Of a DNA stretch of 35,774 nucleotides, positions 21,735-28,874 are shown one piece after another. The position numbers and the translations under genes were made by a program. Every line of letters begins with the position of its first letter. Position 1 is the first letter of the stretch. This DNA is from Gammaproteobacteria bacterium (GTDB taxonomy: Bacteria; Pseudomonadota; Gammaproteobacteria; SZUA-140): assembly GCA_003230085.1 (NCBI GenBank), contig QIGV01000050.1, forward strand, positions 1-35,774, read 5' to 3'. The notes beneath the pieces are model-generated. The model was given only the letters and a program-made list of their open reading frames with translations, was not told the origin of the DNA and did no database searches.

Positions 21735-21755
21735 CTCGAGCTATCCTGGTTTATC

Positions 21756-21881
21756 TTAGATGAACAGGGCCTTTTCAGGTTTCCCTAATTGCCTGGCGAC
21801 CTCCTGGGAAAGCTTTTTCATCAACGCTTGCTCAGTGTCCACTGAGGTCTCTGTATTAGTTTGCAGCTTTAGATAAGGCAT
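21756..21881 (-). pseudogene. Truncated MIF/tautomerase-family gene remnant
   Basis: A 41-codon minus-strand frame begins MPYLKLQTNT and runs through ALMKKLSQEVARQLGKPEK before ALFI and a TAA. The start (Pro1 after Met, beta strand, helix, then GKPE) matches the N-terminal third of the MIF/phenylpyruvate tautomerase-like family, normally about 115 residues. Similarity stops right after GKPEK, and the other frames downstream do not restore it. An AGGA Shine-Dalgarno is still present eight bases before the ATG, and TATAAT lies further upstream. The likely event is deletion of the 3' two-thirds, fusing the gene end to DNA 21 bases from the DLH-like stop. A functional micro-protein cannot be excluded. 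Confidence 0.65.
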
Positions 21882-22008
21882 ATCGATTCCTGGCAAGGTT
21901 ATAATTCTTAATTATAGTTTATGCGAGCTTTTCTGACAGTCGCAAAACCTGGCTGCTTTCCCCATTATGCCCTGAAGATTTTTGTGGAAATCCAGGCCAT
22001 CTATCCTA

Positions 22009-22030
22009 TTGATAACCTGTGTGCTATCAA
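22009..22030. promoter_or_regulatory. Palindrome upstream of ilvB (candidate operator)
   Basis: TTGATA and TATCAA form perfect 6-bp arms separated by 10 bases, about 130 bases before the ilvB start. Spacing does not fit an FNR box (which has four bases between TTGAT and ATCAA). A LysR-type or other dimeric regulator site is possible. Confidence 0.35.
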
Positions 22031-22105
22031 ATATTGCCGCTGATATTATACCGTAGGGTGATTGATCTATCTTTTGGAGTAATATCTAATTACAATGTTA
22101 TGTTT

Positions 22106-22119
22106 TGCATTAGTATGCA
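22106..22119. promoter_or_regulatory. Second palindrome upstream of ilvB
   Basis: TGCAT-TAGT-ATGCA, perfect 5-bp arms, lies about 40 bases before ilvB in the untranslated leader or promoter. No attenuator-type hairpin with a T tract was found between 21882 and 22161, unlike the leuA leader. Significance is uncertain at this arm length. Confidence 0.25.
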
Positions 22120-22161
22120 GATATTCCAACATTAGTTCATTGATTATAGAGGTAATTACGC

Positions 22162-26233: not shown

Positions 26234-27013
26234 GTGACAGAAGAGATCAAGGAACCAAAGCGGCGCAGAGGGATTTACTTGCTGCCTAACTTGTTTACGA
26301 CAGCTGCATTGTTTGCCGGATTCTACGCCATCGTAGCGTCTATCGGTGGTCGCTTTGAAGCGGCAGGAATAGCCATTTTTGTCGCCATGTTTATGGATGG
26401 TGCCGATGGCCGCATTGCTCGCCTGACCAACACTCAAAGTGACTTTGGCGTCGAATACGACAGTCTTTCTGATATGGTGGCCTTTGGTTTGGCGCCGGCG
26501 CTGGTGGTCTATATCTGGTCACTATCGTCACTAGGGAAACTCGGTTGGCTGGCAGCCTTTATCTATACGGCCGCGGCTGCATTACGTCTGGCGCGTTTCA
26601 ATACTCAGTCAGAAAGCAGTGACAAGGCTTATTTTCAGGGTCTGCCATCACCTCCTGCAGCTGCCCTGATTGCCGCATTGGTTTGGCTCGGTAGTGATTA
26701 TGGCGTTAAGGGTGAAGACATCGCCTACCTGACGTTCATACTGACCCTGGGGGCAGGCCTGCTGATGGTCAGTAATGTCCGTTACTACAGCTTCAAGGAC
26801 ATTGACCTCAAAGGTAAAGTACCCTTTGTGGCACTCTTGCTACTGGTGTTAATTATTGTGTTTGTGTCTATCGATCCGCCTATCATCCTGTTTACCATGG
26901 CGGTTACCTACGCATTATCTGGATTTCTAATCACTCTTTTTCAGCTGCGTAAAAGACGTGCTGAGAGAAAAACGGCGCTTAAAGGAGGGGATGGGCCGGA
27001 CAAAAACACATAA
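26234..27013 (+). CDS. pssA: CDP-diacylglycerol-serine O-phosphatidyltransferase (PssA, CDP-alcohol type)
   Basis: Makes phosphatidylserine from CDP-diacylglycerol and serine in the inner membrane. The 259 residues start at GTG. The signature DGADGRIARLTNTQSDFG..YDSLSDM (about 56-80) matches DxxDGxxARxxxxxxxxGxxxDxxxD exactly. Several hydrophobic helices follow. This is the Bacillus-type integral membrane enzyme, unrelated to the phospholipase-D-like PssA of E. coli. It lies 24 bases after the Psd-like gene. Since that gene appears catalytically dead, the pathway from PS to PE presumably uses another decarboxylase. Confidence 0.93.
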   Translation: MTEEIKEPKRRRGIYLLPNLFTTAALFAGFYAIVASIGGRFEAAGIAIFVAMFMDGADGRIARLTNTQSDFGVEYDSLSDMVAFGLAPALVVYIWSLSSLGKLGWLAAFIYTAAAALRLARFNTQSESSDKAYFQGLPSPPAAALIAALVWLGSDYGVKGEDIAYLTFILTLGAGLLMVSNVRYYSFKDIDLKGKVPFVALLLLVLIIVFVSIDPPIILFTMAVTYALSGFLITLFQLRKRRAERKTALKGGDGPDKNT

Positions 27014-27069
27014 TATCCTCATCATATGTAATGCTTGGCTTTTCCTGACGGGTGGTTTATATTCAAACT

Positions 27070-27186
27070 ATGTTCAACGATATCGCAATATCCACAGAAG
27101 CAGCATGCCATGCATGTACCCAAGGCAGCGTTGCCGCTGACCTGTTAAATTCCAGTGTTCTCCCACTGTGCCTGCTGCTGCCGTAA
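27070..27186 (+). CDS. leuL: Putative leucine leader peptide of leuA (attenuation)
   Basis: A 38-codon frame starts at ATG 27070 and ends VLPLCLLLP at a TAA at 27184. Six of its 38 residues are Leu, three of them consecutive CTG codons three codons before the stop. A GCTGCC/GGCAGC hairpin (27177-27192) overlaps the Leu codons and the stop, and a terminator-like hairpin with T6 follows at 27228-27268. The layout matches ribosome-mediated attenuation of leucine operons: stalling at Leu codons would favour an alternative RNA structure and allow leuA transcription. Weak points are a poor Shine-Dalgarno (GGGTGG is 14 bases away) and no clearly identified antiterminator pairing. Confidence 0.55.
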   Translation: MFNDIAISTEAACHACTQGSVAADLLNSSVLPLCLLLP

Positions 27187-27192
27187 GGCAGC
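27177..27192 (+). promoter_or_regulatory. Leader hairpin overlapping Leu codons and stop
   Basis: GCTGCC-GTAA-GGCAGC gives a perfect 6-bp stem with a GNRA-type tetraloop. It includes the last Leu codon and the stop of the putative leader peptide. It could be the pause hairpin of the attenuator. Confidence 0.5.
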
Positions 27193-27227
27193 CTACTTAT
27201 TCATATCCCTCATTCTCAAATTTGATA

Positions 27228-27268
27228 CTGCATTGCAGACCGCTCAGGCGGGGCAATCAGGATTTTTT
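27228..27268 (+). terminator. Intrinsic terminator (attenuator) upstream of leuA
   Basis: Outer CTG-c-ATTGC pairs with GCAAT-CAG, and inner CCGC pairs with GCGG around a TCAG loop, with small internal bulges. GA and then six T residues follow (27263-27268). Being between pssA/the leader peptide and leuA, it can either end the pssA transcript or act as the leucine attenuator. Confidence 0.65.
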
Positions 27269-27289
27269 GTAACCGGATACCTCGGTTAC
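27269..27289. promoter_or_regulatory. Palindrome between attenuator and leuA
   Basis: GTAACCG and CGGTTAC are perfect 7-bp arms with a 7-base spacer, placed immediately after the T tract and 25 bases before the leuA ATG. It could be an operator, or a hairpin in the leuA 5' UTR just ahead of the GGAG ribosome-binding site. Confidence 0.45.
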
Positions 27290-27314
27290 ACTGTAGACTG
27301 TTTGGAGCCACGTT

Positions 27315-28874
27315 ATGAATAGCAAAGAAAAACTCATTATTTTTGATACAACCTTGCGGGACGGGGAACAAAGTCCTGGAGCCTCGATGACGCGGGATGA
27401 AAAGGTTCGCATCGCCAGGATGTTGGAGCGCATGCGGGTCGACGTGATCGAGGCCGGTTTTCCCATCGCCAGCACTGGAGATTTTGATGCTGTACAGGCT
27501 GTAGCAAGAGCCGTCCGTGACAGTACGGTATGTGGCCTGGCACGGGCCCTGAAAAATGATATTGACCGCGTTGGTGAAGCATTAAAGGATGCTGCATCCG
27601 CCAGAATTCATACCTTTATAGCCACGTCACCGATTCACATGCAAATGAAATTACGCATGACGCCCGAGCAGGTGCTAGAGCAGGCGGTGGATGCTGTCAG
27701 GCATGCCCGCCAATATACAGATGACGTAGAATTTTCACCTGAAGATGCGGGACGGTCTGATGTCGATTTCCTCTGCCAGATAATTGAGGCTGTTATTAAT
27801 GCTGGTGCCAGGACAGTCAATATTCCTGATACGGTAGGTTATAATATACCGCAGCAATTTGGCGATCTCATCCGTAATTTGATTGAACGTGTACCGAACT
27901 CTGATCAGGCTGTTTTCTCTGTTCATTGCCACAATGATCTGGGGTTGGCGGTTGCCAATTCATTAGCGGCAGTCATGTGTGGCGCCCGTCAGGTGGAGTG
28001 CACCATCAACGGATTGGGTGAAAGGGCGGGCAATGCTGCGTTGGAAGAAACAGTGATGACCGTACGGACGCGCCAGGATGTTTTCCCCTGCGAGACGGGT
28101 ATTGATACGACTCTGATCGTGCCTGCTAGTCGGCTAGTAGCAGGAATAACCGGGTTTGCAGTACAGCCGAACAAGGCCATAGTGGGTGCCAACGCCTTTG
28201 CCCATGAATCCGGCATTCATCAGGATGGTGTTTTGAAGAGCCGTGAAACCTATGAAATCATGCGGGCGCAGGATGTAGGCTGGAATGCCAATCGTATGGT
28301 GCTGGGCAAACATTCCGGTCGTAATGCTTTTCGAACTCGTTTGAAGGAATTGGATATCGAGTTTGATTCAGAAAATGAATTGAACGAAGCATTTACACGT
28401 TTCAAGGATCTGGCTGACAAGAAACATGAAATCTATGATGAAGATCTGCAGGCGCTAGTGACAGATGCTGGCCTTGCTGCTGAAAATGAACGGATTAAAT
28501 TGGTGGCGCTAAAGGCTTGTTCAGAAACCGGCGAAAAACCACAGGCTGAGGTAAAACTGTGGTTTGACGGGCAGGAAACACAGGTCATGGCAATCGGCAG
28601 CGGTCCAGTGGACGCTACTTTTCGAGCCATCGATTCCATCATCAAAAGCGAGACGGAATTACAACTCTATTCAGTCAATGCGATTACCAGCGGCACTGAC
28701 TCGCAGGGAGAAGTCACGGTACGTTTGGAAAGGGCGGGACACATTGTCAACGGGCAGGGTGCAGATACCGATATTGTGATTGCCTCGGCCAAGGCCTATA
28801 TCAATGCCCTGAATAAAATAATAGAACCGGCTGATCGAGCACATACCCTCAGGGGTACAGGTCCTCAGGTTTAA
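27315..28874 (+). CDS. leuA: 2-isopropylmalate synthase
   Basis: First committed enzyme of leucine synthesis, condensing acetyl-CoA with 2-ketoisovalerate. The 519 residues match the proteobacterial short form. The N-terminal TIM barrel carries [15 protein letters not shown] (11-25), the metal-binding [12 protein letters not shown], and [25 protein letters not shown] lies in the linker. The C-terminal LeuA allosteric domain (about 390-519) provides leucine feedback. A GGAG Shine-Dalgarno is seven bases before the ATG. Upstream lies a putative Leu leader peptide and attenuator, so control is probably both allosteric and transcriptional. Confidence 0.97.

Follow-up and report, generated by a model that had tools for sequence, protein, structure and literature searches.

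A leucine-rich leader peptide upstream of leuA in Gammaproteobacteria, with a predicted leaderless start and a candidate Rho-dependent output

Leader-peptide systems resembling the leuA locus

The usual account of amino-acid attenuation comes from enteric operons, in which a Shine-Dalgarno-led leader peptide is combined with an antiterminator and an intrinsic terminator. We examined the region upstream of leuA in a 35,774-nucleotide stretch of gammaproteobacterial DNA (the window) and compared it with this and other described systems. Like the enteric leu leader (E. coli leuL; Rfam Leu_leader), the window has a leader peptide with Leu codons before leuA, as well as a terminator hairpin with a U-tract. 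Unlike E. coli leuL, its leader has 38 rather than 28 codons and a run of CTG rather than CTA, is predicted to have no 5′ UTR, and shows neither a detectable antiterminator nor an Rfam match. It differs further from the enteric leu arrangement in that the terminator is not conserved in relatives and a second, putative promoter lies behind it. The Rho-dependent leader-peptide attenuators of the tnaC and topAI uORF type offer a second comparison, since there too a short ORF is followed by a C-rich unstructured stretch and output is plausibly set by the position of the ribosome relative to the Rho-loading site; the leuA leader, in contrast, would sense charged tRNA-Leu through its Leu run rather than a ligand or antibiotic, and the role of Rho here is a predicted one. 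The sensor may resemble that of an amino-acid attenuator and the output that of a Rho-dependent leader.

The actinobacterial LEU element, also upstream of leuA, is defined by a pseudoknot and by pairing between the Leu run and the Shine-Dalgarno region (PMC1262725). Our locus shares with it a leader with a Leu run before leuA and the lack of an obvious classical attenuator (PMC1262725), whereas pairing of the Leu run with the Shine-Dalgarno region was not specific here under strict controls and had no effect in the window. Leaderless leader peptides are known from the trpL gene of S. meliloti (PMC7298713) and the ilvB leader of C. diphtheriae (PMC5784534), in which, as predicted here, the leader ORF lies at the 5′ end of the transcript. 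Those are trp and ilvB leaders of Alphaproteobacteria and Actinobacteria, unlike the present leader of leuA in Gammaproteobacteria, whose leaderless start is predicted from promoter spacing only.

In the window, leuA is the last branched-chain gene of a run ilvB-ilvN-ilvC-psd-pssA-leuA, with all genes in the same direction. We did not find a convincing Leu/Ile/Val-rich leader ORF in the long intergenic region upstream of ilvB (21735-22160). The closest named relatives of the window genome are uncultured Gammaproteobacteria (L031-L033), and the genome encodes a rho gene. The features considered below are as follows.

27035-27063, + strand: promoter P1, TTGGCT-N17-TATATT, with a predicted start site at 27070; spacing common to relatives
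27070-27186, + strand: Leu-rich leader peptide ORF of 38 codons, predicted leaderless; from Leu enrichment in this frame only and homologous leaders (74-75 of 100-103 upstream regions)
27177-27192, + strand: hairpin 1, GCTGCC-GTAA-GGCAGC, which spans the final Leu/Pro codons and carries the stop codon in a GNRA-type loop
27193-27227, + strand: C-rich, G-poor, unstructured stretch, candidate Rho-loading (rut) site, from composition and folding
27228-27268, + strand: intrinsic terminator-like hairpin and T6, -14.7 kcal/mol, rare in relatives
27269-27289, + strand: inverted repeat GTAACCGGATACCTCGGTTAC, -10.9 kcal/mol, retained with changed sequence in the sister genome L002
27287-27292, + strand: predicted P2 -10 element TACACT, from hexamer enrichment in relatives
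27304-27307, + strand: leuA Shine-Dalgarno sequence GGAG
27315-28874, + strand: leuA (2-isopropylmalate synthase), with Pfam HMGL-like and LeuA_dimer domains

The leader ORF, its relatives and its predicted start

The leader ORF runs from an ATG at 27070 to a TAA at 27184-27186, encodes the peptide MFNDIAISTEAACHACTQGSVAADLLNSSVLPLCLLLP and ends with CTG CTG CTG CCG TAA. An earlier note, made from the letters of the window, had described this Leu-rich 38-codon frame with its three CTG codons, the GCTGCC/GGCAGC hairpin and a T6 hairpin before leuA; coordinates, folding and shuffles all agree with that description, and the leader ORF, the stop hairpin and the T6 hairpin are present beyond chance. 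Dinucleotide shuffling of 27014-27314 produced a Leu-rich ATG ORF in 0.37% of cases, and one combined with a stop-overlapping hairpin in 0.03%. The arms of hairpin 1 (27177-27182 and 27187-27192, around the GTAA loop at 27183-27186) pair perfectly, and the structure folds with -11.8 kcal/mol (z -2.83). Its TGCC/GGCA core is invariant in 20 aligned relatives, and because the arms do not vary, no covariation was found in that alignment. We also considered whether the 3′ arm of the hairpin pairs with RNA further downstream, and rejected this because swapped partners paired at least as well. In many relatives hairpin 1 is followed by a second conserved element, CCTGGCGAGG-N3-AACGCA, consisting of a small hairpin and a tail (L055, L058, L034, L037, L048, L086, L105, L096, L084 and others). 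This element occurs in the Thiohalobacter and Ectothiorhodospira groups, other groups having a different hairpin at that place; it is absent from the window and has no Rfam match.

For comparison with related genomes we took the leuA upstream sequence of 110 loci, to a maximum of 450 bases each, giving 100 distinct regions, and kept 74 leader-bearing loci for family statistics; these sequences are related and not statistically independent, and all counts across relatives should be taken in that light. A Leu-rich ORF, defined by a fixed score, was present in 75 of the 100 distinct regions, compared with 2.6% of shuffles. Most of the relatives' peptides have 28-41 codons, with ..L(R)LLP-stop as the typical ending. 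The comparison that the earlier note had proposed, for conserved Leu codons, was borne out: in the leader frame, 43.6% of the final 14 codons are Leu, as against 7-8% in the two other frames. All six Leu codons are used in these leaders while the rest of the peptide varies, and this, together with the enrichment being confined to the reading frame, argues for translation of the leader. The same note's remark that the codon choice is CTG and not the rare-Leu type is true of the window; in the relatives, CTA makes up 8% near the leader end versus 0.9% in leuA, and CGA 38 of 104 Arg codons versus 3.9% in leuA. These rare Arg and Leu codons are enriched inside the Leu run, the pattern expected under selection for slow decoding.

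R1, a covariance model built on the leader end, matched the window with E 5.7e-8, a score that is not independent since the window sequence belongs to the seed, and had no other significant match in that genome. R1 matched 53 of 229 Gammaproteobacteria genomes, with one match per genome, and 28 of the 29 best matches examined outside the window lie directly upstream of leuA. Searches of the window and 12 relatives against Rfam, at both the gathering and a permissive threshold, returned no match, Leu_leader included. The leader is absent upstream of leuA in L005-L010, which form one genus of the window's own family, so by this comparison it is dispensable in some lineages; several of these retain only a P2-like block, CGGTTAAACTG, near leuA. 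On the evidence of these alignments, many Gammaproteobacteria have a Leu leader peptide before leuA whose position, frame and Leu content are conserved, and it very likely senses leucine supply. This gammaproteobacterial element was not found in the open-access literature searched; the work of Vitreschak et al. 2004 (cited in PMC1262725), reportedly the main comparative study of proteobacterial attenuators, lies outside that literature, and an earlier description is possible. The leader is widespread and apparently uncatalogued.

P1 is the only sigma-70-like site within 26950-27330, and its -10 element ends at 27063, which puts the predicted start near 27070, on the A of the leader's start codon. 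The consensus promoter of the relatives is TTGGCA-N17-TATA(G/T)T. Choosing the leader ATG by ORF length alone, and so blind to the -10, we found a TATAAT-like hexamer ending 6-7 nt before it in 25 of 74 loci, compared with 0.9 expected (P about 3e-29). Leaderless spacing (a gap of 5-8) was also seen in 11 of 27 loci of a class survey, a set that partly overlaps the first. A second group of relatives has a gap near 28 nt, i.e. a short 5′ UTR, and leaderless translation, judged by these gaps, is not universal among them. The leader ORF of the window is probably leaderless, with its transcript starting on the ATG, a prediction drawn from promoter spacing alone. The earlier note was correct that the leader's ribosome-binding site is weak, and we attribute this to the predicted start of the transcript on the leader ATG, the promoter spacing indicating that the transcript probably lacks a 5′ UTR altogether.

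Terminators, the C-rich stretch and a second promoter

The terminator hairpin of the window (27228-27260) is followed by GA and then by T6 at 27263-27268, and has a folding z of -3.03. L002, a sister genome, retains the T6, while its hairpin ends about 9 bases upstream and no longer abuts it. Together with the Leu leader and a pause-type hairpin 1, the well-formed terminator of the window would fit classical ribosome-mediated attenuation of the enteric leu type, in which a stalled ribosome shifts folding from the T6 terminator towards an antiterminator. We addressed this with a folding test in which the transcript was cut before the 3′ arm of the terminator, using E. coli leuL as the positive control. 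Sequestration of the 5′ arm of the leuL terminator was 0.03 with no ribosome, rose to 0.46 when one sat on the Leu codons, and was 0.00 once it had just passed them. The window values were 0.06-0.10 for a ribosome at the CTG run and 0.01 for one at the stop. The search for mutually exclusive antiterminator and terminator structures that the earlier note had called for therefore gave no antiterminator in the window, by a test that does detect the one of E. coli leuL. An untruncated version of the test, set aside as uninformative, gave the window terminator a probability of 0.95-0.99 at any ribosome position, which would also count against classical attenuation were E. coli leuL not equally flat. 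Moreover, an intrinsic terminator-like structure lies between leader and leuA in only 11 of 74 relatives. Classical attenuation in this form is, in our estimate, unlikely, and we did not place the locus among enteric-type attenuators, since the test for an antiterminator came out negative and Rfam gave no match. Of the earlier note's proposal that leuA is controlled as in enteric leu operons, then, the conserved Leu leader peptide stands, and the antiterminator and a conserved terminator do not. The same note had held that relatives lacking either Leu codons or the terminator would speak against it, and here the relatives divide: the Leu codons are kept, the terminator is mostly missing, and L005-L010 have no leader.

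What the relatives do share behind the leader is a bias in composition. Just past the leader stop, C minus G averages +6.5 per 50 nt, compared with -0.6 (sd 5.2) in controls, which were intergenic windows upstream of other genes from the same loci and the window; 50 nt further downstream it is back to background. In the window itself, the 50 nt directly behind the leader have a C minus G of +9, which ranks at the 99th percentile for this locus, and 27187-27236 is no more stably folded than shuffled sequence (z +1.07). The C-rich stretch after the leader stop suggests Rho-dependent attenuation, although a high C content does not prove that a rut site is present and the Rho reading is an argument from composition only. 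Given the plausible intrinsic terminator of the window, Rho may not be required in this particular genome.

In relatives, including those without a leader, TATAAT-like hexamers are also enriched at a distance of 21-26 nt before the start codon of leuA, and in the window the T6 tract occupies the expected -35 position relative to such a -10. On these two grounds, leuA is probably served by a promoter of its own, P2, located past the terminator. The inverted repeat GTAACCGGATACCTCGGTTAC overlaps the P2 -10 (its version in L002 is GTAATCCC...GGGTTAC) and could be an operator or an RNA hairpin. The sequence GGAGCAG was considered as a special leuA Shine-Dalgarno sequence and discarded, being not clearly enriched over loci without the leader.

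Translational attenuation, in which the Leu-codon run pairs with the Shine-Dalgarno region of leuA and stalling frees the latter, as proposed for the LEU element, drew some initial support. Across the family, masking the Leu run lifted predicted accessibility of the Shine-Dalgarno sequence from 0.25 to 0.36, a larger rise than other masked segments gave; the Shine-Dalgarno flanks paired with the Leu run better than shuffled flanks (mean z -0.66), and long pairings were seen in single loci (L096, L024, L109). However, the signal was lost with synonymous-codon shuffles (z -0.16 ± 0.11) and with GC-matched swaps (-0.12 ± 0.12), and in the window accessibility was unaffected (0.58 to 0.57). Since the strict controls removed it, we read the pairing as generic for CT-rich and GA-rich RNA, and consider this mechanism improbable. 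We think it similarly improbable that P1 makes a separate small RNA or peptide always ending at T6, with P2 driving leuA and the leader acting in trans or as a vestige: the terminator of the window does sit between P1 and P2, and the S. meliloti trpL attenuator does yield a leaderless trans-acting RNA (PMC7298713), but most relatives have no terminator between leader and leuA, the leader goes with leuA in 28 of 29 matches, and the conserved Leu codons indicate leucine sensing.

A proposed mechanism and its meaning

We give roughly even credence to a leucine-responsive leaderless leader that controls the leuA transcript from P1, with output by Rho (and, in this genome, also by T6) and basal expression from P2. 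The proposal builds on what was computed, namely the conserved leader, its Leu codons, the hairpin, the promoter spacing, the C-rich stretch and the P2 -10 enrichment; from these we infer the start site itself, translation, leucine sensing and the Rho output. The P1 transcript would start on the leader AUG and so be loaded with a ribosome immediately, by leaderless translation. With ample leucine, the ribosome would pass the Leu codons and be released at the stop inside hairpin 1, exposing the C-rich unstructured RNA, and transcription would end before leuA by the action of Rho, in the window genome also at the T6 terminator. When charged tRNA-Leu is scarce, the ribosome would stall on the Leu run and cover the C-rich stretch and hairpin 1; a stall upstream of the C-rich stretch would in this way block Rho, and polymerase would reach leuA. 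P2 would provide a basal supply of leuA that bypasses the switch.

More tentatively, this may be a widespread gammaproteobacterial leuA element in which a leaderless leader reads leucine and gates Rho without an antiterminator, intrinsic terminators being lineage-specific additions. Compared with the enteric arrangement, the leuA leader appears to retain the Leu-codon sensor while dispensing with a 5′ UTR, an antiterminator and, for the most part, a terminator. If this is true, the sensing ORF would be the stable part of such a system and the output its replaceable part, and the leuA leader would offer a clean system for the coupling of leaderless translation to transcription and Rho.
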